In this document: positions 6,940 through 24,979 of the stretch, piece by piece | How the letters are laid out: each line of letters opens with the position of its first letter | Numbering within the stretch: the first letter of the stretch is position 1 | Notes under the pieces: model-generated | Database searches by the model: none | Seen by the model: the letters and a program-made list of their open reading frames with translations, nothing else | Told to the model about the DNA's origin: nothing | Position numbers and translations under genes: made by a program | From: Sedimentisphaerales bacterium | Lineage (GTDB): Bacteria > Planctomycetota > Phycisphaerae > Sedimentisphaerales > Anaerobacaceae | Length of the DNA stretch: 64,000 nt | Assembly (NCBI GenBank): GCA_016936075.1 | Contig: JAFGPS010000195.1 | Coordinates: 1-64,000 of the forward strand | Reading direction: 5' to 3'

Positions 6940-6940
6940 A

Positions 6941-7906: not shown

Positions 7907-7930
7907 AATCCAAAACAGGAATTTGTGTAA

Positions 7931-8368: not shown

Positions 8369-8792
8369 AGCTATATCAATTTCCGAGAAAAAGGGCATGA
8401 GAAAGAAAAATGTACTCGAAGCTAAACTGGAAGTTGACCACGGAATAATCGGAGATGCTCATGCCGGGAAATGGCACAGGCAAATAAGTTTACTTGGCTT
8501 TGAATCTTTTGCTGAAGTAGTTGCTCAGGGAGTAATGGTATCGCCGGGTGATTTCGCTGAGAATATCACAACTGAAGGAATTAACCTTAAAGAAATAAAA
8601 GTTGGAGATAGAATATTATTGGGTAAGGATACAAAAATTGAAATTACACAAATTGGAAAGAAATGCCATACAAAATGTGAAATATATAAACAATTGGGAA
8701 ATTGTGTCATGCCGAAAGAAGGCCTTTTTGCGAAAGTTCTCAAAAGCGGCTCAATAAATATCGGTGACGAAATCGAGGTAATCAATGATTAA
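8343..8792 (+). CDS. MOSC-domain protein
   Basis: 149 residues from GTG 8343, chosen because AGGTGG sits 5 bases upstream; a TTG at 8322 is the other option. Sequence features include 'DHGIIGDAHAGKWHRQISLL' near the N-terminus, 'PGDFAENITTEGI' and the conserved Cys in 'IGKKCHTKCEIY'. Small stand-alone MOSC proteins are predicted to bind sulfur or molybdenum cofactor and often sit with moaC/mogA; a role in cofactor sulfuration or transfer is plausible but unproved. It overlaps moaC upstream and mogA downstream, implying translational coupling. Confidence 0.88.
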   Translation: MATIKGRIKAISISEKKGMRKKNVLEAKLEVDHGIIGDAHAGKWHRQISLLGFESFAEVVAQGVMVSPGDFAENITTEGINLKEIKVGDRILLGKDTKIEITQIGKKCHTKCEIYKQLGNCVMPKEGLFAKVLKSGSINIGDEIEVIND

Positions 8793-9261
8793 AACCGCAA
8801 TATTAACAATCAGCGATAGTTGTTCAAAAGGAACGCGAGAAGACATTAGCGGCCAAACTATCGCAGAAATGTTGCCTGAAAATAAATTCCAGATAAGCAA
8901 AATAAACATAGTACCTGATGACATACAGGAAATTGCAAAAGAGTTAATTAATTTCTGCGACAAAAATGAAATCGATATAGTATTCACTACAGGAGGGACA
9001 GGACTGGGACCACATGATGTCACTCCGGAAGCAACTGCTTCTATTAGTGACAAGCTCGTTCCTGGAATCAGCGAAATTATACGAGCTGAAGGTTTCAAAA
9101 AAACACCTAACGCCGCCCTATCAAGAGGAATATCCTGTATTAGAAAAAATACTTTGATTATAAATCTGCCCGGAAGTCCGAAGGGTGTACGAGAATCATT
9201 GGAAGTAATATTGACTTTTATACCTCACGCAATAAAAATGATGCATGGGAGCGGACATTAA
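8785..9261 (+). CDS. mogA: Molybdopterin adenylyltransferase (MogA/MoaB family)
   Basis: 158 residues with the family core 'ILTISDSCSKGTREDISG' and 'FTTGGTGLGPHDVTPEAT', and 'INLPGSPKGVRESL' near the end. MogA adenylylates molybdopterin before MoeA adds molybdenum. The start overlaps the MOSC gene by 8 bases and has GAGGT upstream. Sequence alone does not cleanly part MogA from MoaB, but in this operon the adenylyltransferase role is the simplest. Confidence 0.9.
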   Translation: MIKTAILTISDSCSKGTREDISGQTIAEMLPENKFQISKINIVPDDIQEIAKELINFCDKNEIDIVFTTGGTGLGPHDVTPEATASISDKLVPGISEIIRAEGFKKTPNAALSRGISCIRKNTLIINLPGSPKGVRESLEVILTFIPHAIKMMHGSGH

Positions 9262-9267
9262 ACAAAT

Positions 9268-10341
9268 ATGAGAGAAAAAACAGAAAATTCTGTAGAAGTC
9301 TTTGTAAAAGCAAAAGAGCTTCTCGATAGCGGCGAAAGTTTTGCTATTGCCTTGGTTCTTAACGCCGAAGGCTCAACGCCGCGTAAAGAAGGTGCGCGTG
9401 CTATTATTACAAATACCGGTAAACTTTTCGGAACCATCGGAGGAGGTGCCATAGAATGCGAAACGCAACGCCTTGCAGTAGAATCCTGCAAATCAAAAAA
9501 ATCTGTAATTTTCGATTTCGAATTACAAGGTCTGGACAGAGAAGGTGACACTCCTATCTGCGGTGGAAAAATGAGAATTCTTATCGATCCGATTTCAGTT
9601 CAACATAAAAATATTTTTAGCCAGATAGCAGAAACAATTAAACAAAGAAACAAAGGTATTTTCCTTACAACAATAAAATATTTACAAATAGAATATAAAT
9701 GGATCTCTTGTGATTCAATAAATTCTAATATAGATTTCCCAGGTGAAGAAGAAATAAACTTATGTCTGGAACATAAACAACCAGAGCTATTTATTCAAAA
9801 TAAAGGTGCGAAAGAAGTTTTCGTTGAACCTATTATTCCACGTCCTTTACTCGTAATTGCGGGCGGAGGTCATATAGGACAGGCTCTGGCAATTCAGGCG
9901 AGCTTAGTTGGCTTCGATATTTTGGTATTGGATGACAGGTCTGAATTTACAAATCGGGAGCTTTTCCCGAAAGACACAAAAACTATTTGCGACGATATTG
10001 CACAAGAGCTTTCCAAAATACCCGCTCAAAAAGATACTTACATTGTCATTGTCACTCGAGGACACAAAGATGACGCCCAGGCACTTGAGGAATGTATTAA
10101 CAAGCCTTTTACTTATATCGGTATGATAGGAAGTAAGCGAAAAGTCGCTATGATTCGTGACAGTTTAATTCAATCAGGTGTTTGTTCAACAGAACAATTC
10201 GAAAAAGTATTTTCGCCTATCGGTCTGAATATTGGCGCGTTGAGTGTACCGGAAATTGCGACAAGTATTACAGCAGAACTAATCGCCGTAAGGAGAATGG
10301 GTATAACGCATAAACCATGGACAGATAAGGAGACTCTATGA
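9268..10341 (+). CDS. xdhC: XdhC-family molybdenum cofactor insertion/sulfuration factor
   Basis: 357 residues: N-terminal XdhC/CoxI domain ('GSTPRKEGARAIIT', 'GTIGGGAIECE', 'ICGGKMRILI') and C-terminal Rossmann domain ('LLVIAGGGHIGQALA', 'DDRSEFTNRELFP', 'YIGMIGSKRKV'). XdhC proteins bind the cofactor and guide its sulfuration and insertion into xanthine-dehydrogenase-family enzymes. Its presence with the adjacent mocA-like gene ties this operon to the molybdenum hydroxylase encoded at 10.9-14.7 kb. The stop overlaps the next start by 4 bases. Confidence 0.92.
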   Translation: MREKTENSVEVFVKAKELLDSGESFAIALVLNAEGSTPRKEGARAIITNTGKLFGTIGGGAIECETQRLAVESCKSKKSVIFDFELQGLDREGDTPICGGKMRILIDPISVQHKNIFSQIAETIKQRNKGIFLTTIKYLQIEYKWISCDSINSNIDFPGEEEINLCLEHKQPELFIQNKGAKEVFVEPIIPRPLLVIAGGGHIGQALAIQASLVGFDILVLDDRSEFTNRELFPKDTKTICDDIAQELSKIPAQKDTYIVIVTRGHKDDAQALEECINKPFTYIGMIGSKRKVAMIRDSLIQSGVCSTEQFEKVFSPIGLNIGALSVPEIATSITAELIAVRRMGITHKPWTDKETL

Positions 10342-10934
10342 TTTGCGGAATTATTTTAGCGGCCGGTTTTTCGAGCAGAATGGGAAGCCAGAAACTCTTA
10401 CTTCCCTTTGGCAAAACTACAGTCATTTCACATATTACAAACCAACTTATTAATAGTAAAGTTACAAAAACATATGTTGTCGTAGGCCATCAGGCAGAAC
10501 AAGTCACTGAAGAACTTTCCGATAAGCCAGTGATAATTATTAATAATCCCGAATACAAAACTGGAATGTTATCTTCGGTAAGAGCCGGGATACGCGACTT
10601 ACCACAAGATTGCAAACAGATTCTTATTGCTCTTGGGGACCACCCATCCATCACAACAAGTTTTATAAACGAATTGATTCAAATATTTTCGCAGACAGAT
10701 AAGAAAATCATCGTTCCGAAATATGGCGACAAACGCGGGCATCCAATATTGTTTTCATCAATTTTCTCAGATGAAATTCTCACAAATTATGACGATATAG
10801 GCCTGCGCGGACTATTGCGAACTCATGATAGTGACATATATGAAATGAACGTTTCCGATTGCTCTGTTGTTTCAGATATGGATTACCCAGAAGACTATCA
10901 GCGAGAAATCAATAGATTTGAAAATAATAAATAA
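10338..10934 (+). CDS. mocA: MocA-like molybdenum cofactor cytidylyltransferase
   Basis: 198 residues of the NTP-transferase fold: 'GIILAAGFSSRMGSQKLLLPFG' N-terminal signature loop, 'VVGHQAEQV', 'LGDHPSI' metal-binding region. MocA makes the cytidine-dinucleotide form of the cofactor used by the xanthine dehydrogenase family. Strong AAGGAG before ATG 10338. Last gene of the operon; its stop is only 4 bases from the stop of the convergent Mo-subunit gene, with no terminator between. Confidence 0.85.
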   Translation: MICGIILAAGFSSRMGSQKLLLPFGKTTVISHITNQLINSKVTKTYVVVGHQAEQVTEELSDKPVIIINNPEYKTGMLSSVRAGIRDLPQDCKQILIALGDHPSITTSFINELIQIFSQTDKKIIVPKYGDKRGHPILFSSIFSDEILTNYDDIGLRGLLRTHDSDIYEMNVSDCSVVSDMDYPEDYQREINRFENNK

Positions 10935-10938
10935 CAAC

Positions 10939-13278
10939 CTACTCAGTTATTTTTCCAGTTGCTCGTAGAATCTTTTCAGGTGTTATAGGTAAATCCTTAC
11001 ATCTGTATCCAGTAGCGTCATACACCGCATGTGCAATCGCAGGTGCGGTCGGAATCGCCAATCCCTCCCCTGCTTCTTTTGCTCCGAAGGGTCCTTCCTT
11101 TTCATACGTTTCGATTGTATAGGATTCTATTTGCGGCATATCTTCGGCGGCGGGAATCTTATAGTCAAGGAAAGTTGTATTGAGAACTTTGCCGTCACGA
11201 ATGACAAATTGCTCGCTGAGAGCATAGCCCAATCCCATATGTAACGCGCCTTCGAGTTGGCCTTCTACAGACATTGGATTAATCACTGTGCCGCAATCAT
11301 GTGCGGTAGTGACTTTTTCTACTGTAACGACACCAGTATCAGGATCAACTGCAACTTCCGCTACCTGGGCGCCGAATGAATAAGCTGGAGTAGTTAAACC
11401 TTTATCCCTCGGTGTATAATAACCACGAGCGGTCAATTCCTCGCCGCGATGAGTTTTAACCCACATAGCTACGGCTTCCCCGAAAGAGATACCGCGTTCG
11501 GGTTTTGCTTTGGCGAATGCTCGGTCATTAGCGAATGCTACCTCATGAATTATATTGAGATTGTATTTTATGGAAACCATTTGAGCGAGTTTCTCTTTTA
11601 TTTTATTGGCGGCGTCGAGAATTGCGTTACCATTCATCAATGTCACCCTACTGCCCCATGTCCCCAAATCGGCTTTGGGTGTCATTGCGGTATCAGCGGA
11701 AGTGACACGGATATTTTCCACTTTAATTCCCAATGCTTCGGCAAGAATCTGCCGCAAAACTGTATCGGAGCCCTGACCTATATCAGATGCCATGGTCAAC
11801 AGATGCGCTGTTCCATCATCATAAGCTCGTACTTCACATGCGGCGAAATTGTACGGCGTATTGAACCAGTTAAATACGCCGCCTGAGATAAAGCTGTAGC
11901 AGCCGATACCAATACCTTTATTGTTGGGCAAGCTTGCACGTTTTTCTTTCCACTTAGACATTTCAGCTACTTTTTGCAATGACTCAACAAATCCGGCGGA
12001 TGATATTTTTGTCACGCCTTCAATAGTATCACCGGTAACCATCGCATTCTTGATTCGCAAATCAATAGGATCAATATTCAGTTCCTTCGCGGCTATATTC
12101 ATTTGTGTTTCTGTAACATACAGAGCCTGCGGTGCGCCAAAACCACGCATTGCACCGGCTGGAGTTTTATTAGTATAGACATGATAGCCACGATAACGAT
12201 AAGCTGGATAGCGATATAACATTGCACCGAAATTGCCGCATAAGAATGTAGCGGTCGGACCCATAGAATTATATGCGCCTCCATCAAGATATGCTTCGAA
12301 ATCTTTGGCTACAATTGTACCATCTTTTTTGAAACCAACCTTCGAGCGAATATTCATAGCATGTCGAGTTCGCCCGGTGGATAGTTCTTCAGCTCGTGTG
12401 AGTACAAATTTAACCGGCCTGCCGGTGCGCTTCGCCATAAAAGCAGCACAGAACTCCCATGAACGAAGTTCCATCTTGCCGCCAAATCCGCCTCCTACAT
12501 GAGGTTTGATAACACGGACGTGGTTTTCCGGCAAACCCAGAGTTGACGCTAAAAGGCACTGGATTATATAAGGAGCCTGAGTCGAGGTCCAAAGTATCAA
12601 GCGGCCTTCAACATCGGGTTGAGCTAATGCAGCACATGGTTCCAAATATGCATGAGATACAGCATGCAAAGTGAACTTATCATCCAGTATCAAATCAGCT
12701 TTATCAAATGCTTTATCAATATCGCCTACATCAATGTTGCGGTCAATACTTATATTTCCTTCAAGCTGGTCAATATCATCATGAATCAATGGAGCGTCCT
12801 GAGCGAGAGCTTCATCAATACTGAATACCGCAGGGAGTTCATCATATTCGACGTGAATTAAACTGATCGCTTCTTCAGCAATATCCGGGTCAATTGCAGC
12901 TACGGCGGCTACTTCATCACCAATAAAACGAACCTTATCCATGGCTAAAGGATATTCATCCTGAGTTTGAGGGAATAATCGCCAATTGCCATATTTAATT
13001 CCGGGAGTATCTTTGCCCGTGATAACATCTTTTACGCCCGGAAACGCAGCAGCTTTGGAAATATCAATATTTTTTATTCGAGCATGTGGAACAGGACTTC
13101 TGAGAAGTTTGCCGTAAAGCATACCCGGCAATTTCATATCTGCGGTATATTGTGCGGCTCCTCTTGCTTTATCGGGAGCATCGATGCGTGGAACACTGCG
13201 CCCCACCACACTTTTCTGCGTATAAGGCCCCGAAACTTTCTGGTTCAGGGCAGGATTTTGTTTATTATTCATTTTCAC
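10939..13278 (-). CDS. Molybdenum hydroxylase large (Mo-binding) subunit, xanthine dehydrogenase family
   Basis: 779 residues with the two-domain layout of CoxL/XdhB/HcrA subunits: 'VGRSVPRIDAPDKARGAAQYTAD' start region, 'PHVGGGFGGK', 'MRGFGAPQA', 'SDIGQGSDTVL', and near the C-terminus 'PFGAKEAGEG', whose last Glu aligns with the catalytic base of the family. The 'GAKEAGEG' form recalls 4-hydroxybenzoyl-CoA reductase (HcrA) and related ring-modifying hydroxylases (from memory). It would oxidise or reduce an aromatic or N-heterocyclic substrate with a Mo-pterin cytidine dinucleotide. Third gene of a leftward operon (FeS, FAD, Mo) with overlapping ends. Substrate unknown. Confidence 0.88.
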   Translation of the reverse strand: MKMNNKQNPALNQKVSGPYTQKSVVGRSVPRIDAPDKARGAAQYTADMKLPGMLYGKLLRSPVPHARIKNIDISKAAAFPGVKDVITGKDTPGIKYGNWRLFPQTQDEYPLAMDKVRFIGDEVAAVAAIDPDIAEEAISLIHVEYDELPAVFSIDEALAQDAPLIHDDIDQLEGNISIDRNIDVGDIDKAFDKADLILDDKFTLHAVSHAYLEPCAALAQPDVEGRLILWTSTQAPYIIQCLLASTLGLPENHVRVIKPHVGGGFGGKMELRSWEFCAAFMAKRTGRPVKFVLTRAEELSTGRTRHAMNIRSKVGFKKDGTIVAKDFEAYLDGGAYNSMGPTATFLCGNFGAMLYRYPAYRYRGYHVYTNKTPAGAMRGFGAPQALYVTETQMNIAAKELNIDPIDLRIKNAMVTGDTIEGVTKISSAGFVESLQKVAEMSKWKEKRASLPNNKGIGIGCYSFISGGVFNWFNTPYNFAACEVRAYDDGTAHLLTMASDIGQGSDTVLRQILAEALGIKVENIRVTSADTAMTPKADLGTWGSRVTLMNGNAILDAANKIKEKLAQMVSIKYNLNIIHEVAFANDRAFAKAKPERGISFGEAVAMWVKTHRGEELTARGYYTPRDKGLTTPAYSFGAQVAEVAVDPDTGVVTVEKVTTAHDCGTVINPMSVEGQLEGALHMGLGYALSEQFVIRDGKVLNTTFLDYKIPAAEDMPQIESYTIETYEKEGPFGAKEAGEGLAIPTAPAIAHAVYDATGYRCKDLPITPEKILRATGKITE

Positions 13279-14150
13279 TTTGCCCTAATTTGTTCCATGC
13301 TGGCATTAAGTGCACGCCTGACTAATACATCAACCATTTTCTTTCTATACGATGCGGTTGCTCTTGTATCTGAAATTGGAGTAGCTTCATCGAGTGAAAT
13401 TTCCGCCGCCTGGTTTATCAATTCTTCCGTAAGTTTTTTACCTTCCAGAGTCTTTTCGGCGTGGAGGACACGTTTCGGAACAGGAGCGACTGCGCCAATT
13501 GCAAGACGAGCCTGAGTTATTGTCTCTTTTTCATCAACATGGAGACAAGCTGAAACTCCTACGGCAGCTATATCTACCTTGCTTCGCGGAGAAACTTTCT
13601 GGTAGTTCGAGCCTGAACGATCCGAAGTAAGCGGTAAAACCAATTCTTTAACGATTTCTCCTGATTCGAGAGCAGTAACGCCCGGGCCGCGGAAGAATTC
13701 ATCCAAAGCAAGAGTTCTCTCACCAGCCGGGTGCATTATAACTACTTTTGTATCATATACTAACAGAGGCGTAGCGGTATCAGCCGAAGGACTTGCATTA
13801 CAGATATTTCCAACTACCGTACCCATATTACGAATTTGTACAGTAGCGGTAACGCCCGCGGCGTAAGCCAATGCGGGAAAATAGCGTTGAATATCGGGAT
13901 TTTGTGCAACCATAGTAAGACTGGCATTTGCACCAATTGTTAAATGTTTATGATTTGAATGAACATAATCTGTATTCGGTATGTTGCTAATACCAATTAT
14001 ATATTCAGGCTGAACTGTCCTGTGCTTCATTTTAATAAGTAGATCAGTTCCACCGGCGAGAATACGCGCTTTATCCTCATGTTCAGCAAGCATTATGCAA
14101 GCTTCTTTGAGACTTTTGGGGATTAAATATGAAAATTTCGGCAGAGCCAT
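13275..14150 (-). CDS. Molybdenum hydroxylase FAD-binding subunit (CoxM/HcrB-like)
   Basis: 291 residues with the FAD-binding loops 'ILAGGTDLLI' and 'VGNICNASPSADTATPLL' and a CO-dehydrogenase flavoprotein C-terminal domain. It passes electrons between the 2Fe-2S subunit and an external partner. It lacks the extra cysteine-rich insertion that carries a 4Fe-4S cluster in true 4-hydroxybenzoyl-CoA reductase (HcrB, about 320 residues), so it may be a dehydrogenase rather than a ferredoxin-driven reductase. It overlaps the genes on both sides by a few bases. Confidence 0.9.
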   Translation of the reverse strand: MALPKFSYLIPKSLKEACIMLAEHEDKARILAGGTDLLIKMKHRTVQPEYIIGISNIPNTDYVHSNHKHLTIGANASLTMVAQNPDIQRYFPALAYAAGVTATVQIRNMGTVVGNICNASPSADTATPLLVYDTKVVIMHPAGERTLALDEFFRGPGVTALESGEIVKELVLPLTSDRSGSNYQKVSPRSKVDIAAVGVSACLHVDEKETITQARLAIGAVAPVPKRVLHAEKTLEGKKLTEELINQAAEISLDEATPISDTRATASYRKKMVDVLVRRALNASMEQIRAK

Positions 14151-14671
14151 TAATCCGACTCCTCGTTCGACCCTGAAGCTTTCGATGGGCCGTTTTGTTG
14201 GTTGATTTTTTTACTGGCAACCATAACAGCTTTAACAATGCGGTGATATCCGGTACAACGGCATAAATTGCCGGATAATGCCTGGCGAATCTCCAATTCA
14301 GTAGGTTCTGGATTTCGATCCAACAAATATTTAGCTGATAGAATCATACCCGGAGTACAATATCCGCATTGGATTGCACCTTCCTTAACAAAAGCTTCCT
14401 GTATTGGATGCAAGGTATCACCTTTTGTTGACAACCCTTCTATAGTTGTGATTTCCTTACCGTCTGATTCCACGGCCAGAGACAGGCATGAGGTAACTGA
14501 TTTGCCATCAATCAGTACTGTACAGGCACCGCAATCGCCGGTTCCACACCCGATTTTTGTACCAATCAGGTTCAAATCCTCACGAAGCACTTCAGCCAGT
14601 GTTCTACAAGGCTCAACCGCGACTGAATATGTATCGCCATTAATATGTAAGGTAATATTAACCTTAGCCAT
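14150..14671 (-). CDS. Molybdenum hydroxylase 2Fe-2S subunit (CoxS/HcrC-like)
   Basis: 173 residues. The plant-ferredoxin-like 2Fe-2S site is 'GCGTGDCGACTVL...C' and the helical second site is 'QCGYCTPGM' with 'GNLCRCTGY', both complete. It shuttles electrons between the Mo centre and FAD. The last 20 residues form a hydrophilic tail not needed for the fold. First gene of the leftward hydroxylase operon; the 305-base gap upstream separates it from the divergent dehydrogenase operon and holds dyads that may be regulatory. Confidence 0.95.
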   Translation of the reverse strand: MAKVNITLHINGDTYSVAVEPCRTLAEVLREDLNLIGTKIGCGTGDCGACTVLIDGKSVTSCLSLAVESDGKEITTIEGLSTKGDTLHPIQEAFVKEGAIQCGYCTPGMILSAKYLLDRNPEPTELEIRQALSGNLCRCTGYHRIVKAVMVASKKINQQNGPSKASGSNEESD

Positions 14672-14976: not shown

Positions 14977-15942
14977 ATGAGAGCTATACAAATAGTCGAG
15001 CCGAGAAAAATTGCAATGCTGGACGATGCCCCAATGCCGGAACCGGCTGAAGGTGAAGTATTAGTAAAATGCAGTCACGTTGCCCTTTGCGGAAGCAACA
15101 TGGGTCCATATACTGGCGAAGGTCTCTGGGGAGAAATGGTATTTCCAAATCCAATAGGCTGGGCCGGACACGAAAATATCGGCACAATCGAAAAATCACG
15201 TTGTGAAGGTTGGGAAGAAGGCACGTTGGTTTTAGCCCAGCCGCAAGGTTATTTCGGTTTTGCCGAGTATATAACCTCTAAACCTCCGGCTATTGCACGT
15301 TTACCACAGAACACACCTGATCCGGGAGCGATTATAGTTGCTCAACCGTTAGCAACCATACTTCGAGCCATGACTAAAACAGGCAATATCATAAACAAAA
15401 CCTGTGCGGTGATTGGACAAGGCCCAATGGGGCTTATTTTTACCCACTACCTGAAATTAATGGGTGCCAGCATGGTAATCGCGACGGATATTATCGACTG
15501 GCGGCTTGAATGGGCGAAAAAATACGGTGCCGACCATATTATTAATGCCGCAAAACAGAATACAGTTGAAGTAGTAAAAGAAATAACCAACGGAACGATG
15601 GTTGATTTTGTAGTTGATGCTGTTGGTTTTAAAGAGACATTAACAACCGCGGCTTATCTGCCAACACACGGCGGCACGATTTTCATTTTTGGAATGCCAC
15701 ACTATCAAACACAGGAATTCCCATGGTATCACGTTTTCAGGAATGAAACTCAGATTAATACCTGTGTCGGGCCAACCTGCGGTGAATTTTTCCAGACAGC
15801 GGTGGATATGGTTCTCGACGATAGAAGTTCATCGCTAACCGATATGGTTATACCGCGAATGCCGTGGGATAAAGCGCCTGAAGCATTTGAACTGTATGCC
15901 GAGTGTGCAGAGGGTTCCCTCAAACTTACGCTTGAACTATAA
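14977..15942 (+). CDS. Zinc-type medium-chain dehydrogenase/reductase
   Basis: 321 residues. The catalytic zinc site is suggested by 'HVALCGSNMG' (Cys) and 'GWAGHENIG' (His-Glu). The usual four-Cys structural zinc lobe is absent, which explains the short length. The NAD(P)-binding Rossmann motif is 'AVIGQGPMGLIF' near residue 142. Such enzymes oxidise secondary alcohols, including hydroxyacyl-CoA or cyclitol-type rings. First gene of the operon with the 2-hydroxyacyl-CoA-dehydratase-like protein, so a cyclic hydroxy-CoA substrate is an attractive guess. GAGGT lies ahead of the ATG. Confidence 0.85.
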   Translation: MRAIQIVEPRKIAMLDDAPMPEPAEGEVLVKCSHVALCGSNMGPYTGEGLWGEMVFPNPIGWAGHENIGTIEKSRCEGWEEGTLVLAQPQGYFGFAEYITSKPPAIARLPQNTPDPGAIIVAQPLATILRAMTKTGNIINKTCAVIGQGPMGLIFTHYLKLMGASMVIATDIIDWRLEWAKKYGADHIINAAKQNTVEVVKEITNGTMVDFVVDAVGFKETLTTAAYLPTHGGTIFIFGMPHYQTQEFPWYHVFRNETQINTCVGPTCGEFFQTAVDMVLDDRSSSLTDMVIPRMPWDKAPEAFELYAECAEGSLKLTLEL

Positions 15943-15947
15943 TTCGT

Positions 15948-15997
15948 CGTGCGTTGCACGAAAAAACACAATACGCAATACGATATACGCAATACGA
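15948..15997 (+). repeat. Small hairpin plus 14-base tandem repeat between operon genes
   Basis: A CGTGC-GTT-GCACG hairpin (15948-15960) is followed by A-run and two copies of ATACGCAATACGA (15971-15983, 15985-15997), period 14. It lies between the dehydrogenase stop and the next ribosome binding site (AGGAG at 16008). It looks like a dispersed intergenic element or an mRNA processing/stability site rather than coding DNA. Confidence 0.6.
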
Positions 15998-16019
15998 AAA
16001 AACATATAGGAGTTTGATA

Positions 16020-17246
16020 ATGACATCATCAGCAGAACTGAAAGATTTTGAAGCCAGTAAAACAATGCGAAATGTGATGGGCCAGTATTTTAAAGAATTG
16101 ACCGATCCGGCAAGACCCAAAAAAATTGCATGGTGCACAAGTGTTGGGCCGGCGGAACTATTAAGAGGTATGGGATTCGAAGTATATTTCCCAGAAAATC
16201 ATGGCGCTATGCTTGGTGCAACAAGAATGGCAACCGATTTAATTCCTCTTGCAAATGCACATGGATTTTCACCTGACATTTGCTCGTATTTAACCAGTGA
16301 TATTGGTTCATATCTCAAAGGCGAAAGCCCCTTAAATAAGATGAAATTACCAGGCCCGCCAAAAGCCGATGTTCTTGTTTACAATACAAATCAATGCAGA
16401 GACGTAAAGGACTGGTTCGAGTTTTATGGCCGTGAATGGAATGTGCCGTGTATTGGCGTTCATACACCACGAGCAATTGGTGACGTGAGTGATACAATAT
16501 TAACTGATGTAGCCAACCAGATCGAGGCACTGATACCTACACTGGAAGAAGTCAGCGGTCAAAAATTTGATATGGATAAGTTTAAGGAAGTAATCGCACT
16601 TTCCAAGCAATGTACTGTACTTTGGAAAGGTGTTCTGGATGCGGCAGCGAATGTACCTTCACCAATCTCATTCTTCGATGGTACAATACAAATGGGACCG
16701 GCTGTTGTTCTTCGAGGCGCACAGTCGGCAATTGATTACTATGAAATATTATTGGCTGAGTTAAATGACAGAATTAAAAATGGTATCGGCGCAGTCGAAG
16801 GTGAAAAGTATCGCATTCACTGGGAAGGTATGCCGATATGGGGTAAACTTAAGAGTCTTGCCTTGCAGTTCATTGAGCTTCAGACAGCAGTTGTGTCCTC
16901 TACATATTGCAACAGTTGGGTTTTCGAAGCACTGGATCCGACTGAACCATTTAAAAGTATGGCAAGGGCATATTGTGAATTATTCATCTGCCGCAGTGAT
17001 GAGCCTAAAGAAGCTTATCTTGAACGGATGATAGAGAAATACAAGGTAGATGGTGTTTTCTACCATAACGCCAAAACCTGCCCGAACAACTCCAACAGCA
17101 GTTATAACATGCCGCAGAGAATGCAGAAAAAGACAGGTAAACCGTACGTGATTGTTGATGGCGACTTGAATGATTTGCGTCTCTATTCGGAAGAGCAAAC
17201 ACGAACCAATATCGAAGCTTTCGTAGAGCAACTGTCACAGAGTTAA
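16020..17246 (+). CDS. Single-subunit 2-hydroxyacyl-CoA dehydratase/benzoyl-CoA reductase-family protein (double-cubane-cluster-like)
   Basis: 408 residues from ATG 16020, chosen for AGGAG 7 bases upstream; an earlier in-frame ATG at 15954 lies in the repeat. It belongs to the HgdB/BcrC/FldC-type fold. Cysteines at 39, 88, 126, 144, 198, 297, 319, 324 and 354 include the cluster ligands; 39, 88, 126, 297 and 354 are my best candidates. Classical dehydratases and benzoyl-CoA reductases need two such subunits, but only one is encoded here, directly beside one activase. That arrangement matches the homodimeric double-cubane-cluster proteins (DCCP). It would carry out an ATP-driven, very low-potential reduction; the substrate is unknown. 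Confidence 0.85.
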   Translation: MTSSAELKDFEASKTMRNVMGQYFKELTDPARPKKIAWCTSVGPAELLRGMGFEVYFPENHGAMLGATRMATDLIPLANAHGFSPDICSYLTSDIGSYLKGESPLNKMKLPGPPKADVLVYNTNQCRDVKDWFEFYGREWNVPCIGVHTPRAIGDVSDTILTDVANQIEALIPTLEEVSGQKFDMDKFKEVIALSKQCTVLWKGVLDAAANVPSPISFFDGTIQMGPAVVLRGAQSAIDYYEILLAELNDRIKNGIGAVEGEKYRIHWEGMPIWGKLKSLALQFIELQTAVVSSTYCNSWVFEALDPTEPFKSMARAYCELFICRSDEPKEAYLERMIEKYKVDGVFYHNAKTCPNNSNSSYNMPQRMQKKTGKPYVIVDGDLNDLRLYSEEQTRTNIEAFVEQLSQS

Positions 17247-17248
17247 GA

Positions 17249-18046
17249 ATGACGGGAGAACAGACAGATACAATGCAGTATTATTGTGGTATTGATATAG
17301 GCGCTTCGTCTGCCAAACTCGCTATCATTGATTCCGATCACCAGTTAGTCGCTAAAGCTATTGGACGCTCTGGTATCGATTACGCAAAAACTGCAGAACA
17401 ATTACTTACAGAACTCGTTGAGAAAGAATCAATAGACAGATCTAAAATTGTTAAATCATTCTCAACTGGTTATGGCCGTGACAATGTTCCATGGGCAGAT
17501 GGAAAAATGACCGAAATTGCCTGTCATGGCAAAGGAGCGTTCTTCCATTTTAAGGAACGAATGACAATAATCGACATTGGCGCCCAGGATAGTAAGGTAA
17601 TCCACCTTAACGAAACAGGAAAACGTGACAACTTTAAAATGAATCGTAAATGTGCCGCTGGTACGGGAGCTTTCATCGAGGAGATTGCGTATCGACTGGC
17701 ACTGGATGTTTCGGAGCTTAATGCTCTTGCCGAGAAATCCACTAACGAAGTATCATTGGGAAGTTTTTGTACTGTTTTCGCCGCTACTGAGGTGCTCGCA
17801 AAGATACGAGCCGGAGTTGATGTAACGGATATTGTTCGTGGTGCATTTAACTCTGTTGTTAAAAGGATTGTTGAAATGGATCGCGTCGAAGGCATGCTCG
17901 TTATGACCGGCGGTGTGGTAGCAAACAACCCGTTTTTAGCTAAACTCATTGGGCTGGCATTTGGCACTGAAGCGCATATTGCTCCCAATGCACAATATAA
18001 CGGCGCATTCGGCGCTGCTTTGTTCGCTGCTGAACAGGCTCGCTGA
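17249..18046 (+). CDS. ATP-dependent activase of the BadF/BadG/BcrA/HgdC family
   Basis: 265 residues of the ASKHA ATPase fold: 'GIDIGASSAKLAI' near the N-terminus, 'IDIGAQDSKVI' in the middle, and 'MTGGVVANNPFLAKL' near the end. Two cysteines, C135 in 'NRKCAAGTGAF' and C174 in 'GSFCTVFAATE', are the ligands that bridge one 4Fe-4S cluster across the homodimer. It injects single electrons, with ATP hydrolysis, into the preceding dehydratase-like protein. An alternative start is ATG 17273, which removes eight hydrophilic residues; neither start has a good ribosome site. It begins 2 bases after the partner's stop. Confidence 0.93.
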   Translation: MTGEQTDTMQYYCGIDIGASSAKLAIIDSDHQLVAKAIGRSGIDYAKTAEQLLTELVEKESIDRSKIVKSFSTGYGRDNVPWADGKMTEIACHGKGAFFHFKERMTIIDIGAQDSKVIHLNETGKRDNFKMNRKCAAGTGAFIEEIAYRLALDVSELNALAEKSTNEVSLGSFCTVFAATEVLAKIRAGVDVTDIVRGAFNSVVKRIVEMDRVEGMLVMTGGVVANNPFLAKLIGLAFGTEAHIAPNAQYNGAFGAALFAAEQAR

Positions 18047-18087: not shown

Positions 18088-20166
18088 ATGTTTGATAAAC
18101 TATTCAGCCCAAAATCAGTCGCAATTATAGGAGCCTCACAAAAGCCCCTTTCGATTGGTAATGTTATTACAAAAAATCTATTAAAATATGAGTATAAGGG
18201 AGAAATTTACCCGATTAATCCCAAAGCAGATGAAATTCTGGGAATCAAGGCTTACCACTCGATTCTGGATGTCCCCGGTGACGTTGATCTTGCGCATATG
18301 TCTATTCCCGCAAAGTTTACTCCCATGGCAATGGATGAATGCGGAAAGAAAGGAGTAAAGTTTGTTATTATAAATAGCGCCGGTTTTAAAGAAGTTGGCG
18401 AAGAAGGCCTTGCTTTAGAAAACGAAGTAGTTGCCGTAGCTAAGAAATATGGTATCAGGGTATTTGGCCCCAACTGCCAGGGAATCATTAATACTGATCC
18501 GGAATTAAAAGCCTACTGTGATTTTACTTTTACCTATCCGGAAGAGGGTCATATTTCAATTGTCGCACAAAGCGGCGGTGTAGGTGCGTTGTTTATGCAG
18601 GCAATTCATGACCTTAGTGTTGGCCTGCGATTCTATGCTTCCAATGGTAATGCATGTGACATTTCAATTCCTGAAATTTTACGATACTACGGAAACGATG
18701 AAAAAACCAAAGCAATCATTCTCTATGCCGAAGGTTTTTCGGATCCCGCAGAGTTTATGGAAGCCGCCAGAGAAGTAGCTGCCAAAAAACCTGTACTTGG
18801 AATGCGTGCCGGACGAACTGAAGAAGGTGCCAAAGCCGCAACGTCTCATACCGGCGGCCTTGCCGGAGGCGGATTATCAACAGAACTGATTTTCAAGAAG
18901 ACCGGCATTCTTACCTTCAGGGATGTTGAAGAAATGTGCCAGTCTGCGGTTGCTCTTTCCTCACAACCAATACCAAAAGGGAAACGAGTTGGATTGATTA
19001 CCGACACAGGCGGCCCCGCTATTATCGCAACAGACGAACTCGTCGATGCAGGTCTGGAAATTCCGGAACTTTCGGATACCGCAAAAGCAACACTAAAAGA
19101 ACAATTACTTCCCCAGGCATCATTGAGAAATCCAATTGATGTTGTCGCGACAGCCGGCGCACCTCATTACCGCGCAGCTCTCGATGTGTTGATGGGTGAG
19201 GAAAATATCGATAGCGTATATATCAATTTCGTCACACCTTCCTTTGTTGACTGCGAAGCGGTTGCAAAAGAGATGGCGGAAGTAAGTAAGCAGCAAAAGA
19301 AACCTATCGTGTGTAACTACATGACTGATAAACCTCAATGGACAGGAACAACTGCGAATATGAAAGAAGGCGGCATTCCCTGTTATGATTACCCGGAAAT
19401 GGCTGCAAAAGCTCTCGCCGCAATGACAAGGTATAACGATCTTCGTAACAGAGAAATTGGAACAGTAAAAACTTTCGATGATGTTGATAAATCCAAAGCC
19501 GAAAGCTTGTTAGCTGAAGCGAAAAAAGCTAATCGAACAATACTGAACGCAAAAGAAGTTTATGAAATTCTTGCGGCCTATGGTATTCCTGCAGCACCAT
19601 GGAAGATAGCTAATAGTGTTGATGAAGCAGTAGCGGCCGCTGAAGAAATAGGTTATCCGGTTGTAATAAAAGCCGATTCAGAGAGTATCGTTCATAAGAG
19701 TGATGTTGGCGGCGTAGCGGTTAACTTAACTGATAAAGCTGCGGTTGAATCAACCGTTAACGAAATGACAAATAAATTCGGTGCTAAAGGATTAAAATTC
19801 TTTATCCAGAAATTTATGCCAGGCGGCCAGGAAGTTATCGTTGGCGCCAAAGCAGAGCCTGGACTTGGACATTTGGTAATGTTCGGACTGGGCGGCGTGA
19901 CAGTTGAACTATTCAAAGACGTCTCCTTCGAAATTACTCCTGTTTCTGACGCTGAAGCAAAACAAATGCTTTCGTCCATTAAAGCCTATCGACTCCTTTC
20001 AGGATTCAGAGGTGCAAAAGGTGTTGACCAGAAAAAACTGGTCGAAGTTATCCAACGTATATCACAATTGGTAATGGACTTGCCTGCAATTCAGGAAATG
20101 GATTTGAATCCGATTATGGCTTATGAAGATACTATTTGTGTAGTTGACGCTCGCATTAGTATATAA
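18088..20166 (+). CDS. ADP-forming acyl-CoA synthetase (fused alpha-beta)
   Basis: 692 residues. CoA-binding Rossmann domain first ('SVAIIGASQKPLSIGN'), then the succinyl-CoA-synthetase-like domains with 'VAQSGGVGALF' and the phospho-histidine loop 'AATSHTGGLAGG', and a C-terminal ATP-grasp domain ('YPVVIKADSESIVHKSDVGGV', 'QKFMPGGQEVIVGAK'). It interconverts acyl-CoA + ADP + Pi with acid + ATP + CoA, and in fermenters usually makes ATP. At the end of this operon it probably harvests energy from the CoA ester made by the preceding enzymes. Good AAAGGA site before ATG. Confidence 0.92.
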   Translation: MFDKLFSPKSVAIIGASQKPLSIGNVITKNLLKYEYKGEIYPINPKADEILGIKAYHSILDVPGDVDLAHMSIPAKFTPMAMDECGKKGVKFVIINSAGFKEVGEEGLALENEVVAVAKKYGIRVFGPNCQGIINTDPELKAYCDFTFTYPEEGHISIVAQSGGVGALFMQAIHDLSVGLRFYASNGNACDISIPEILRYYGNDEKTKAIILYAEGFSDPAEFMEAAREVAAKKPVLGMRAGRTEEGAKAATSHTGGLAGGGLSTELIFKKTGILTFRDVEEMCQSAVALSSQPIPKGKRVGLITDTGGPAIIATDELVDAGLEIPELSDTAKATLKEQLLPQASLRNPIDVVATAGAPHYRAALDVLMGEENIDSVYINFVTPSFVDCEAVAKEMAEVSKQQKKPIVCNYMTDKPQWTGTTANMKEGGIPCYDYPEMAAKALAAMTRYNDLRNREIGTVKTFDDVDKSKAESLLAEAKKANRTILNAKEVYEILAAYGIPAAPWKIANSVDEAVAAAEEIGYPVVIKADSESIVHKSDVGGVAVNLTDKAAVESTVNEMTNKFGAKGLKFFIQKFMPGGQEVIVGAKAEPGLGHLVMFGLGGVTVELFKDVSFEITPVSDAEAKQMLSSIKAYRLLSGFRGAKGVDQKKLVEVIQRISQLVMDLPAIQEMDLNPIMAYEDTICVVDARISI

Positions 20167-20187: not shown

Positions 20188-20218
20188 AAAGGGTACGGTT
20201 TTCCGTGCCCTTTTTTTT
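20188..20218. terminator. Bidirectional rho-independent terminator
   Basis: Stem AAAGGGTACGG / CCGTGCCCTTT with a TTTT loop and an 8-T tail on the plus strand; the A-rich left arm provides a U-run on the minus strand. It sits between the convergent acyl-CoA synthetase and MatC-like genes and can stop both operons. One G-T pair is in the stem. Confidence 0.85.
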
Positions 20219-21500
20219 ACAACGATGGAAATAAAAATAGAAGTACTGCATGTATCATAATATTGATAGCTGCCCATGCAATCAATCCGAGGAAAAACTG
20301 AGAGCGTTTTTTCTCGTCATCAACTAAAGATACCGCCATTGCGCCCATCGAAGAAAATGGTGATATTGCAGTTGCCAATCCTCCAACAGCTATCGCATAA
20401 AAAAGAATACCGGCATCAATTCCGCTTGCAGCAACTCCGGGAACCAGAGGGAAAAAAGTTGTGTTCACAACAAAGCCGCTAACGAAAAAACTCATGATTC
20501 CGGAAAAGGTCGCAAAAAGCACAGGAGATGAGCCCTGAGAAATATTAGTTGACAAAAATTCTGAAATCTTATCTATCGATCCTGTTTTGGTAACAACCGA
20601 AATCAGCATACTCATTCCGCAGAGAACAGTGAAAGCTCTCCAGGAAACCCGAAGAAAGGATTTTTTCTCGTCACCAACCTTAAATAATAAACAAAGCAAC
20701 GCACAAAAAAATGATATGAAAGCAATATTAAGATTTGCTTTAAGAAAAGCTAAAAAAGTCAGCTTTGGAAATGCTGTATTCAATAAAGGAATTAAAACCA
20801 TAATACAAATATAAAAGATTATAATTCCAAGAGTTATTTTTTGTTTTCCTTCAAAGGCCGGAGGTTTTGCAATTTCCTTTGCTTTTAATTTGAAACCTCT
20901 AAAGACAATATAAGCAGCTACAAATATAATCGTAAATAGAATAAAGCTATGTAATAAAGCTCTATATGCATATGTACCTGCAACTTCCAGAGAATATCCA
21001 GCCTGTTCTATCATCAATTCTTTTATAAAAATATGAATAGTACTTATTGGAGTTAATCCCCCAATGCTTATGCCGCATATTACAGATGAGGCCGCAAGAA
21101 AGTAATTCATACCAGTAATCCCGGCAATCGTAATTGATATGGGTAAAAGAAGCACAATAGCTCCGTCACCGGCTCCAATCCCGGCCAAAACAAAACCCAG
21201 AAAATAAAGAACTATTGGTAAAGCCCATGGAATAGACCGACATATATAAACAGCATGAAGTGCCAGTTTTTCCAGAGAACCGTTGAGAGTGGCGAAACTA
21301 TAAAAAAAAGTTACCGCAAAAAGCATCAGGAATAACTTAGTTGGCCACAGAGTAATAATTTCTTTCGGAGGTATTTTTAATACAAACGAACCTAATATAT
21401 AAGCAGCAAATATCGCCCATAGCCCAATATTGGTTTTTGTTAAAGTACCCATAATTATTACTACAATAATAATTATGCTGCATACAAGCAGGATACCCAT
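20217..21500 (-). CDS. MatC-like dicarboxylate/organic-anion carrier
   Basis: 427 residues, about 11-12 predicted membrane segments, with an N-terminal block typical of the MatC_N (malonate/dicarboxylate carrier) part of the ion-transporter superfamily: 'LGFVLAGIGAGDGAIVLLLPISI' and 'ISIGGLTPISTIHIF'. A second conserved re-entrant region is 'AVGGLATAISPFSSMGAMA'. A strong AAGGAG precedes the ATG. It is the last gene of the leftward operon with the glycyl-radical enzyme, so it may import the substrate or export the product acid. The exact solute is unknown. Confidence 0.8.
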   Translation of the reverse strand: MGILLVCSIIIIVVIIMGTLTKTNIGLWAIFAAYILGSFVLKIPPKEIITLWPTKLFLMLFAVTFFYSFATLNGSLEKLALHAVYICRSIPWALPIVLYFLGFVLAGIGAGDGAIVLLLPISITIAGITGMNYFLAASSVICGISIGGLTPISTIHIFIKELMIEQAGYSLEVAGTYAYRALLHSFILFTIIFVAAYIVFRGFKLKAKEIAKPPAFEGKQKITLGIIIFYICIMVLIPLLNTAFPKLTFLAFLKANLNIAFISFFCALLCLLFKVGDEKKSFLRVSWRAFTVLCGMSMLISVVTKTGSIDKISEFLSTNISQGSSPVLFATFSGIMSFFVSGFVVNTTFFPLVPGVAASGIDAGILFYAIAVGGLATAISPFSSMGAMAVSLVDDEKKRSQFFLGLIAWAAINIMIHAVLLFLFPSL

Positions 21501-21583
21501 ACTTTTTGCTCCTTATATATAAAAACAAATATTCCAGGAAAGGCTATGAAGCAAATCGAAACTTAATACTAACCTGAACTTAA

Positions 21584-23974
21584 TCAAACAAGATTCAGTT
21601 CAGTTCTTTCGATTACCTCGTCCTGAACTTCTTTACCTAATACTGTAAAATAAGCACTATAACCTGCGACACGTACCACAATATCACGATGCTTTTCAGG
21701 AGTGATTTGTGCATCCTGAAGTGTTTTCTTGTCTATTACATTAAACTGGACATGCTTGCCGCCGTTTTTGAAATAGGCTTTAATAAGAAAAGATAATTTT
21801 TGTAAATCTTCATTTGTTTTCAGTGAAGATGGATGAAATTTCATATTCAATAAAGTTGCCTGATATGAATCCTGGTCAATCTTACAGGCGCTTTTTATAA
21901 TAGCGGTCGGACCTTTCTTGTCCATACCGTGCATAGGTGACATGCTGCCATCGGCGAGTATTTCACCTTTGCGCCTTCCATCCGGAGTTGCCCCAGTTAA
22001 AGCTCCTCCCGGCTGATGAGATGTAATGGAAATCGCTGTCGTTATAATTTTTCCACCATATGCGGAATCTTTTTTTGCTAATGTTTGTTCAACAAATTTA
22101 TACAGGTCGGCCGCAATTGAATCGACGTAATCATCATCGTTTCCATATTTCGGAGCGTTAAGAAACATCTTTCTCAAGTCTTCGTAACCAGTCCAATCAG
22201 CATCAAGAGCAGCTACCAATTCTTTCATAGTGACTTTTTTATCTTCATATACGAGTTTTTTTACCGCAGCTAATGAGTCGGCAACATTTATTGCCCCTAT
22301 CGTACAGATAACGGAACCATTTTCAAAAGGCATCTTACGATTTAATAAATCTTTACCTTCTTTAATCGCGTCTTTCATTAAAGATGACCTGAACGGGTCA
22401 GGGAAAAATTGCCTCTGTGCCAAAAGCTCTACGTTATTTCTTTCTCCGGCTAAATCCAAAAGATATTCAAGTTGTTTATAGAATGCGGCCTTAAATTCCT
22501 GATACGTTTCCATATCTTCAACATTACCGGTATTAATCCCAACTAATTCATCATTATTCGGATTGATACCGTTATGCATAAAAATATCAAACGCAAGAGA
22601 AACAACAAACATTCCTATTGAAACAGTTCTCGATAGAGCGGGTATATTGCCATCGAGACATCCGGTCATTATATATTCACGGGAATCTTCAAGTGACAAT
22701 CCATTCTTACGGAAAAATTCGATATACGATTTATCATTAACAAAAGCAGGCATCCCCAAACCAGTACGTATAACTTCCAGTGCCTTTTGCATCAATTCGA
22801 TTGGAGTATTATCATGCACACGAAGCGTCAGGGTATGATGTGGAATTTGGGTTTGTTTTGCTGCTTCCAATAAAAGATAAGTCAACTCATTCGTCGCGTC
22901 TTTTCCATCGCGTGTCACTCCGCCGATAGTCCAATTGTGCCACTTCGCCATTCCGGAATTTTTCTTCCTATTGGCCTTGCCGGATACCCTGTTCAATTTT
23001 ATATTCTTGATACGCAGAAATTCAAGTAACTCGAGGACTTCATCATCATTAATCTTACCTGCATTCTTATCTTTTTTGTAAAAAGGATACATATACTGGT
23101 CGAACCTTCCAGCCGCTGATGTCGGAGAAGGACATATCAAAAGGAAAGTAAACCAGAACGATTGTAAAGCTTCGAAGAAATCTCTGGCAGGATTAGCGGG
23201 AACCCATTTGCAGGCTTGAGCTATTCTTTCAAGCTCTTTTTTGCGAGTCGAATCTTTTTCTGTGCTTGCTATTTCTTGAGCCAATTGAGCATAACGATTA
23301 GCAAAAGCAATAATGGCTTTGTGTACGATTATGACTGACTGTAAGAAATTTTGTTTTTCAAGAGACTCTCCGTTGGAATCTTTAATCCTCTCTAATTCTT
23401 CCTGAGCCTGTGAGATTATTTTCAGTGAACCTTCGCTGAGCATTTTTTCATAATCAACTCCGACCAGAAAGAATCCCGGTCCAAGTCCCAATCCAGATTG
23501 AGCATATCCCCCGCCGCTTCCGACTTTTTTCCCTTTCCAGGGAGGAAGTATCAATCCTGATGTTATAAATGGCCTAAGACGCTCATTTTCATACAACACT
23601 TCGCCCATTGCTGAAACTAAATTTCTATCGTTGAATTTTGCATTCAATACGTGCAATTCGGCTTCTTCCTGAGCTGTGATTGAATATTGTTCCTGCTTTA
23701 AGGAATCTATTTCATCCTGTGTCCATGTCCCATATTCATAATCTATTTCCAGGCCGAAAGGTTTACTTGCACCAGCTCCGGCGAAGAGTTCGTCTTGTTC
23801 GATAAAAATATTTATATTGTTTAAGACATTTGAGAGAATTTTTGCCCGCCTGATGATATACGGCTCACCTTCGGTTTCGGCAAGAGTCTGTGTAGCAAGC
23901 CGAAACTTTTCAATACAAAGCGGATATTTATCCACTTTGAGACGGTCAATCATTCTTTTTATTCTGTCATTCAT
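21584..23974 (-). CDS. Glycyl-radical enzyme of the pyruvate-formate-lyase superfamily, atypical active site
   Basis: 796 residues from ATG 23974, chosen because family members start with 'MN.RIK.L'; a GTG at 24007 adds 11 residues. The radical glycine is in 'RVAGYSAYF' (Gly771 by this start). The thiyl cysteine is Cys439 in 'MTGCLDGNIPAL'. Most decarboxylase, dehydratase and C-N/C-S lyase members carry Cys-X-Glu there; here it is Cys-Leu-Asp. An unassigned reaction is therefore likely: decarboxylation or elimination on an aryl or organic acid would fit the neighbours. The activase gene lies just upstream and overlaps the GTG start. The radical makes it oxygen-sensitive. Confidence 0.93.
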   Translation of the reverse strand: MNDRIKRMIDRLKVDKYPLCIEKFRLATQTLAETEGEPYIIRRAKILSNVLNNINIFIEQDELFAGAGASKPFGLEIDYEYGTWTQDEIDSLKQEQYSITAQEEAELHVLNAKFNDRNLVSAMGEVLYENERLRPFITSGLILPPWKGKKVGSGGGYAQSGLGLGPGFFLVGVDYEKMLSEGSLKIISQAQEELERIKDSNGESLEKQNFLQSVIIVHKAIIAFANRYAQLAQEIASTEKDSTRKKELERIAQACKWVPANPARDFFEALQSFWFTFLLICPSPTSAAGRFDQYMYPFYKKDKNAGKINDDEVLELLEFLRIKNIKLNRVSGKANRKKNSGMAKWHNWTIGGVTRDGKDATNELTYLLLEAAKQTQIPHHTLTLRVHDNTPIELMQKALEVIRTGLGMPAFVNDKSYIEFFRKNGLSLEDSREYIMTGCLDGNIPALSRTVSIGMFVVSLAFDIFMHNGINPNNDELVGINTGNVEDMETYQEFKAAFYKQLEYLLDLAGERNNVELLAQRQFFPDPFRSSLMKDAIKEGKDLLNRKMPFENGSVICTIGAINVADSLAAVKKLVYEDKKVTMKELVAALDADWTGYEDLRKMFLNAPKYGNDDDYVDSIAADLYKFVEQTLAKKDSAYGGKIITTAISITSHQPGGALTGATPDGRRKGEILADGSMSPMHGMDKKGPTAIIKSACKIDQDSYQATLLNMKFHPSSLKTNEDLQKLSFLIKAYFKNGGKHVQFNVIDKKTLQDAQITPEKHRDIVVRVAGYSAYFTVLGKEVQDEVIERTELNLV

Positions 23975-23999
23975 AAACAAGCCAATTATTAAATCTGAA

Positions 24000-24941
24000 C
24001 TATCCACCTATTTTAACAGATAACCCATAAGACTCCAAAATTTTTGTTATTTCATTCATCTTTTTATCCGAAGGAATTGTTCCGGAAAAACCGTTCCATG
24101 ATTGTTCAAGATTCTTATGCTTTTGCTCTCCCAAATTATTATAAGGTAATAAATGCACTTTTATTAATTTATCAAGCATTGTCGAAATAAAGTTTGCAGT
24201 CTGTTTTATATTCATAATCGAATCGTTACAATCCGGTATAATCGGCAATCTGGCAACAATTGGAATCTTGAGTTCATGGTATATTTTTTTTGCATTTTCT
24301 AATATTGTTTCATTGGAAACTCCGGTGAATTTTATATGTTCGCTATCATCAAAATGTTTAAAGTCAAAGAGTACTAAATCTGTAAAAGTAAGTACATTCT
24401 TTAAAGTTTCCCATGAACCATATCCGCTTGTTTCGATCGCGGTGTGAATATTTTCGTTTTTGCACAACTCAAGAATAGCACATGAAAATTCGTGTTGTAC
24501 TAAAACTTCTCCGCCGCTTAATGTCACTCCGCCGTTTGATTCCTGATAGAACATTTTATCTGAAGAAACTTCATTTAGGACTTCTCCGGCTGTAATTTCT
24601 TTACCAATTATTGTACGTGCTTCATTTGGACATATTGTTACACATTTGCCGCATATTTTGCACAAATTACGGTCGGTTTGTACTACAGATCCATTTTGCG
24701 AGATAGCATTTTGAGTACATACTGAAATACATTTGCCGCAACCTGTGCATTTATCATAACTGAAAAATAACTGGGGATATAATTCCTGCGATTCAGGATT
24801 CTGGCACCACAAGCATTTCAGGGGACATCCGCTTAAAAATACGGTTGTTCTTATTCCCGGTCCATCATGGATAGCATAATGCTGAATATCAAATACAAAT
24901 CCCTTAATTTCTTCAAGGTCATGTATTCTTTTGTTTTCCAT
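24000..24941 (-). CDS. Glycyl-radical enzyme activating enzyme (radical SAM, two extra 4Fe-4S clusters)
   Basis: About 313 residues from ATG 24941; a TTG at 24953 is also possible. The radical-SAM site is CX3CX2C in 'SGCPLKCLWCQNPES'. A ferredoxin-like insertion follows with two CX2CX2CX3C/P sets ('CTGCGKCISVC' and 'CKICGKCVTICP'), as in activases of glycerol dehydratase, hydroxyphenylacetate decarboxylase and relatives, but not pyruvate formate-lyase. It abstracts the glycine hydrogen of the adjacent enzyme using SAM. 'SNGGVTLSGGEVL' is the family GGE motif. Confidence 0.94.
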   Translation of the reverse strand: MENKRIHDLEEIKGFVFDIQHYAIHDGPGIRTTVFLSGCPLKCLWCQNPESQELYPQLFFSYDKCTGCGKCISVCTQNAISQNGSVVQTDRNLCKICGKCVTICPNEARTIIGKEITAGEVLNEVSSDKMFYQESNGGVTLSGGEVLVQHEFSCAILELCKNENIHTAIETSGYGSWETLKNVLTFTDLVLFDFKHFDDSEHIKFTGVSNETILENAKKIYHELKIPIVARLPIIPDCNDSIMNIKQTANFISTMLDKLIKVHLLPYNNLGEQKHKNLEQSWNGFSGTIPSDKKMNEITKILESYGLSVKIGG

Positions 24942-24979
24942 GATTTCTTTCAAGCCGGAGTTTATAGCCGTAAGTTAAA

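Follow-up and report, generated by a model that had tools for sequence, protein, structure and literature searches.

We propose, tentatively and with slightly less than even confidence, that two adjacent genes in the window (the whole 64,000-nucleotide stretch of DNA analysed here) encode a one-subunit relative of the class I benzoyl-CoA reductases and its activase, a pair predicted to reduce an aryl-CoA either at the ring or at a substituent. We favor this reading because the catalytic protein is placed among alpha subunits, lacks a consistent partner subunit, and has relatives whose genes keep the company of aryl-CoA genes. Against it stand the facts that the nearest single relative of the protein is a dehydratase subunit, HadB, and that its W300, which lies beside the benzoyl-ring site of BzdO, is HadB-like in our hand reading of the alignments. 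In short, the genomic company points to aryl-CoA, the nearest homologue to a 2-hydroxyacyl-CoA dehydratase, and the gene number and fold to an alpha subunit alone.

The preliminary description had noted a single cysteine-rich catalytic gene 2 bases ahead of a single activase gene, and this proved right (Table 1). The catalytic open reading frame of 408 codons plus stop matches the HGD-D profile PF06050 with 228.9 bits (cut-off 28.4), which places its product in the class I benzoyl-CoA reductase / 2-hydroxyacyl-CoA dehydratase (BCR/HAD) superfamily, and the protein contains 9 cysteines. The ATG of the activase gene follows the catalytic stop after 2 bases (TAA GA ATG), and the encoded protein is a BcrAD_BadFG / acyl-CoA dehydratase activase (TIGR00241, 198 bits, cut-off 125) with HgdC as its best PDB relative (1hux, 2.3e-50; 4eht, 5.2e-49), i.e., a single activase gene of the HgdC/HadI type, as expected for a 2-hydroxyacyl-CoA dehydratase. 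Compared with the nearest relative, locus L006, the catalytic gene has a pN of 0.054 and a pS of 0.682, and the activase gene a pN of 0.077 and a pS of 0.591, indicating that both are under purifying selection. The source genome (4.36 Mb, 89% complete) has Sedimentisphaerales MAGs as its nearest named relatives, and the genomes compared in this study are mostly or all metagenome-assembled.

Table 1. Coordinates in the window of the gene pair, its neighbors and the codons of key residues of the catalytic protein (fractions are rows of the 35-row alignment that keep the residue)
Feature	Position	Strand	Evidence or conservation
Three-subunit molybdenum hydroxylase	10939..14671	-	profile matches
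Zinc-type MDR alcohol dehydrogenase, upstream of the pair	14977..15942	+	PF00107; homologue in 12/21 group A loci
Catalytic HGD-D protein (408 aa) of the alpha, CoA-ester-binding lineage	16020..17246	+	PF06050, HadB match, fold, tree
Cys39 codon, one residue before a double-cubane ligand position (T40)	16134..16136	+	invariant, 35/35
Glu59 codon, corresponding to BzdO Glu65 (catalytic)	16194..16196	+	invariant, 35/35
Cys88 codon, cluster ligand, = BzdO Cys95	16281..16283	+	35/35
Cys126 codon, cluster ligand, = BzdO Cys128	16395..16397	+	35/35
Cys297 codon, aligned to BzdN Cys263, a distal ligand of the double cubane	16908..16910	+	34/35
Cys324 codon, aligned to BzdN Cys293, a distal ligand of the double cubane	16989..16991	+	20/35, window clade only
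Cys354 codon, cluster ligand, = BzdO Cys380	17079..17081	+	35/35
ATP-dependent activase, single gene, HgdC/HadI-like, 265 aa	17249..18046	+	TIGR00241, PDB match
ADP-forming acyl-CoA synthetase, 692 aa, downstream of the pair	18088..20166	+	profile matches

Sequence, fold and tree computations all assign the catalytic protein to the alpha branch of the BCR/HAD family. Its best relatives of solved structure are HadB (3o3m_A, 5.4e-51), the alpha subunit of (R)-2-hydroxyisocaproyl-CoA dehydratase, followed by MbdO and then BzdO, with the double-cubane-cluster protein (DCCP) structures far behind as sequence matches (1.3e-4 and 1.8e-4). An AlphaFold2 model based on 25 aligned relatives (pLDDT 91.7, pTM 0.90) gave VIA Z scores of 50.0 against HadB, 45.4 against BzdO, 41.7 against MbdO, 33.8 against DCCP and 32.5 against HadC. 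A 52-row tree splits the DCCPs and beta subunits from the alpha subunits and the family of the window protein with a support of 100/99; the branching order among the alpha subunits is unsure, since several reference branches are long. HadB shares 42 of the 72 positions that are invariant in the 35 family members, BcrB 36, MbdO 34 and BzdO 31, while the DCCPs share 16-18 and the beta subunits 12-14. The protein stays under the cut-off of every curated NCBIfam subfamily model, the scores being 230.1 bits for HadB (NF052455, cut-off 750), 160.8 for BcrB (486.6), 90.6 for BzdO (448.6) and 67.8 for DCCP (NF040772, 350). The DCCP score, the tree and the fold speak against membership in the DCCP family, for which the preliminary description had named the pair a candidate, and the source genome holds a separate, true DCCP; what stood of that description was the single catalytic/activase pair, the lack of a consistent partner in the relatives and the CoA-linked substrate.

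According to the available text of PMC11971306, the [4Fe-4S]-water cluster of BzdO is ligated by C95, C128 and C380, with a catalytic role for Glu65, and the [8Fe-9S] cluster of BzdN by C36, C73, C100, C263, C293 and C327. The window protein was compared with both in the 35-row alignment, from which L010 was left out for its internal stop and the duplicates L032, L035 and L037 were dropped; as MAFFT misplaced the N-terminus of BzdO, the comparison with BzdO at C39, Ser41 and W300 was read by hand from phmmer alignments. The three cluster cysteines and the catalytic glutamate of the substrate subunit of class I benzoyl-CoA reductases are present as C88, C126, C354 and E59, all of them invariant, and an ordinary three-cysteine cluster appears certain from this pattern. 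The six ligands per monomer that go with a double-cubane enzyme were found in part: the window protein has Cys at five of the six BzdN ligand positions, namely the three ordinary ones, C297 and, in this clade only, C324, but the position of BzdN C36 is T40, next to C39. Since C39, C297 and C324 have been kept to the extent given in Table 1, a larger cluster in the window clade is possible. A double-cubane reductase, with an [8Fe-9S] cluster in each monomer and either a small molecule or a CoA ester as its substrate, would fit these cysteines and the single catalytic and activase genes, which the pair has in common with DCCPs (6eno, 7yyl), where a Cys also occupies the C297 position. We nevertheless consider it improbable, for the DCCP model score is far under its cut-off, tree and fold are those of an alpha subunit, 35/35 relatives have Thr or Ser where BzdN has C36, C324 is missing in 15/35 and C297 in one, the invariant Glu59 has no equivalent in DCCPs in the alignment, and the true DCCP of this genome is encoded elsewhere.

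A second HGD-D subunit was not found by tblastn of window bases 6001-26500. The genome-wide search for a missing partner, by which the preliminary description would have been tested, did turn up three further PF06050 proteins, yet all of them lie in one operon on contig C75 with its own activase, and one is the true DCCP (NF040772, 416.5 bits); we therefore rejected them as the missing partner. This operon (L044:806-7768) encodes a methyltransferase-like protein, the DCCP, the two remaining HGD-D proteins, of 328 and 468 aa, the activase and a SelD-AhpD fusion, a composition that makes a link of DCCP to selenium metabolism worth a look; similar-looking HGD-D gene groups occur at G021:C101, G057:C172, G186:C167 and G198:C32. 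Among the relatives, 34/36 loci have an activase match (the exceptions are L014 and L020), and no consistent beta or partner gene was found in their genomes within the limits of incomplete MAGs, as the single-subunit claim had implied. The catalytic gene encodes the sole PF06050 protein in 9/33 relative genomes (8/20 plus 1/13), and the one-subunit subfamily is therefore real.

The pair has one of each where class I benzoyl-CoA reductases combine two unlike HGD-D subunits with two unlike activases, and it does not have the alpha-plus-beta make-up of HadBC/HgdAB, with no adjoining beta gene here and none in the nine genomes; one catalytic plus one activase gene is the DCCP-type arrangement. The protein might still be half of a heterodimer with its partner elsewhere, in the window's case one of the three C75 proteins, since the alpha subunits of solved structure compared here pair with a beta subunit and three other HGD-D proteins are at hand in the source genome. 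We find this very unlikely, given that nine relative genomes have no other HGD-D match, that the C75 proteins form a separate operon with an activase of its own, and that, where group A genomes (defined below) were examined, their remaining HGD-D proteins are of unlike kinds, some scoring only 21-44 bits; the incompleteness of the MAGs leaves a little room for it. With alpha descent and no beta partner, the protein would therefore most likely form a homodimer served by a homodimeric activase. At two loci (L023:4784-7114 and L024:6689-9187), a ketopantoate-reductase-like domain is fused to a paralogue of the window protein (41% and 38% identity, respectively) that has lost cluster cysteines, C126 being replaced by Gly and C354 by Ala or Ser, and in L024 also C88 by Asn; this fused paralogue is possibly a clusterless partner.

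The aryl-CoA association comes from the genomic company of the relatives. We call the clade with C324 (20 rows) group A, the other 15 rows being the rest, and six genomes (G065, G107, G124, G136, G142 and G181) group B. The usual gene order in group A is MDR, FadJ-like enzyme, HGD-D, activase, metallo-hydrolase and KAS III, with a divergent ligase; a FadJ match is found in 17/21 loci, one of them a remnant (L007), and a ligase match in 9/21. The ligase belongs to the benzoate-CoA ligase family, matching anthranilate-/benzoate-CoA ligases at 2e-146 versus 5e-81 for acetyl-CoA synthetase, and is present in 7/8 and 9/11 of the group A genomes tested. The genomes without it are those of the window, L006 and L013, the first two of which carry an ADP-forming synthetase in the operon. 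The group A gene set could carry a whole benzoyl-CoA-like route, if its members act as ligase, reductase, hydratase, dehydrogenases, hydrolase and condensing enzyme. In group B and L028, the gene is part of benzoyl-CoA-type clusters that also contain Oah-like, Had-like or hydratase genes; further BcrB/BcrC-type HGD-D genes (BcrB in L028) occur on the same or another contig, so that the window-type protein is not needed there as the benzoyl-CoA reductase. In L028 (Bacteroidales), BcrB (638 bits), BcrD (320) and Oah (583) all score over their cut-offs, and BcrA scores under it (429 versus 578). The same locus (L028:126-20937) combines this class I benzoyl-CoA reductase cluster with an enzyme resembling 4-hydroxybenzoyl-CoA reductase, in which the FAD subunit does contain the [4Fe-4S] loop.

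Oah is over cut-off in 7/20 relative genomes, including that of L025, which has no other HGD-D match. When the 198 genomes of the class were surveyed, the TIGR02262 aryl-CoA ligase was found in 7 and an Oah-like ring hydrolase in 6, all 13 of them carriers of the gene; that is, one or the other marker is present in 13/14 carriers versus 0/184 non-carriers (Fisher p about 2e-19, not corrected for relatedness). In the 89% complete source genome itself, neither a TIGR02262 ligase (threshold 1e-100) nor an Oah (1e-30) nor a FadJ-like protein (1e-40) was found. Therefore, the aromatic substrate suggested for the window derives from the relatives and the CoA synthetase, and as both FadJ and the ligase are missing, the pathway in this genome may differ.

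The main rival, which we rate as rather unlikely, is a one-subunit (R)-2-hydroxyacyl-CoA dehydratase, in which a recyclable electron from the activase would generate a ketyl radical, water would be lost and the resulting enoyl-CoA would, in the relatives, be passed on to FadJ-type oxidation. HadB is indeed the best match by sequence, by NCBIfam score (230 bits versus 161 for BcrB) and by fold, the single activase gene resembles the HgdC/HadI systems, and the FadJ-like hydratase/3-hydroxyacyl-CoA dehydrogenase of group A is encoded upstream of the HGD-D gene. The fusions in L023 and L024 can be counted on the same side, as the ketopantoate-reductase-like fold includes 2-hydroxyacid dehydrogenases. 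However, the ligase that tracks the gene is an aryl-CoA ligase, the clusters of group B and L028 are those of the benzoyl-CoA pathway, in which we know of no 2-hydroxyacyl-CoA, the source genome has no FadJ, and the HadB cut-off of 750 is far from reached. As for HadB itself, the likeness consists of 31% identity, the highest fold score, the three cluster cysteines, Glu59 and Ser41; but HadB works with HadC, whereas the window protein has no beta subunit, and HadB has Ser in place of C39 and Pro in place of C297.

The preliminary description had taken a CoA-linked substrate from the flanking dehydrogenase and ADP-forming CoA synthetase; both genes are as it named them, and such a substrate is supported. 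Homologues of the synthetase also lie downstream of the pair in L006, L021 and L022, and the window enzyme is 58% identical to one inside the L028 benzoyl-CoA reductase cluster. The zinc MDR scores only 45 bits with the Had model of the benzoyl-CoA pathway. Between the MDR and HGD-D genes, where the relatives have FadJ, the window has a short intergenic stretch (15943-16019) with repeated ACGCAATACG-like units. The L007 remnant is a 110-aa FadJ-like gene piece (L007:9666-9998) upstream of the HGD-D gene and marks a decayed intermediate towards the arrangement of the window. The large subunit of the molybdenum hydroxylase resembles 4-hydroxybenzoyl-CoA reductase (753 bits, cut-off 995), but we rejected this identity, as the FAD subunit does not have the extra [4Fe-4S] loop that L028 has; a link of the hydroxylase to the gene pair is possible. 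The hydroxylase genes stand in a region (5764-14671) with MoeA, MoaA, MOSC and MogA-like genes and XdhC-like and MocA-like proteins, the last two labels coming from reading the sequence. On the other side, at 20217-24953, a MatC/CitMHS-type transporter adjoins a glycyl radical enzyme with an activase of its own; sulfopropanediol dehydratase and PFL2-like are the models that fit the enzyme best, both under cut-off.

Under the aryl-CoA reductase reading, the catalytic protein would descend from the alpha, CoA-ester-binding branch (HadB, BcrB, BzdO, MbdO) and work without a beta partner. The activase would spend ATP to drive a low-potential electron into the cubane that Cys88, Cys126 and Cys354 coordinate beside Glu59, and the reduced [4Fe-4S]-water centre would then reduce the CoA-bound substrate. 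Across the family, this substrate would most likely be an aromatic, benzoate-like acyl-CoA, undergoing ring reduction or reductive removal of a substituent, and in the lineage of the window the ADP-forming synthetase would form its CoA ester. A more specific version, which we hold to be doubtful, is a minimal alpha-only aryl-CoA (Birch) reductase of the class I type, a homodimer with a homodimeric activase that retains partial ancestral double-cubane ligands (C297, C324 and C39) beside a benzoyl-CoA-reductase-like active site.

With BzdO, MbdO and BcrB, the window protein shares the alpha branch, the cluster cysteines and the catalytic Glu, as well as gene neighborhoods common to its relatives, and MbdO also has Cys at position 39; but each of those enzymes contains a further HGD-D subunit and a pair of different activase subunits, where the window has one of each. 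Phenyllactyl-CoA dehydratase, FldBC, is an activase-dependent radical enzyme acting on an aryl-containing CoA ester; it has two different subunits, unlike the window pair with one kind of catalytic subunit. In searches of the open-access literature, including that on 3-hydroxybenzoyl-CoA dehydroxylation and single-subunit benzoyl-CoA reductases, we found no description of the one-subunit subfamily, which is weak evidence. Such an enzyme is likewise not described in the available portions of PMC7500099, PMC1924859 and PMC13416013, nor did the aromatic terms searched for appear in passages of two Planctomycete genome papers. The pair is probably best regarded as a variant within the BCR/HAD family for which we found neither a fitting curated subfamily model nor a description.

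In the class I benzoyl-CoA reductases and 2-hydroxyacyl-CoA dehydratases of this comparison, two unlike HGD-D subunits work together. If our reading is true, the beta-less subfamily shows that the radical chemistry on CoA esters needs only one kind of subunit. It would then bear on the origin of BCR/HAD enzymes from homodimeric double-cubane proteins, as proposed in PMC11971306, and an alpha-only Birch reductase would represent a surviving intermediate that links homodimeric DCCPs to the four-subunit benzoyl-CoA reductases. Such an enzyme would also be simpler to express for use in enzymatic Birch-type reduction, and its gene would mark anaerobic catabolism of aromatic acids in uncultured Planctomycetes and several other phyla.
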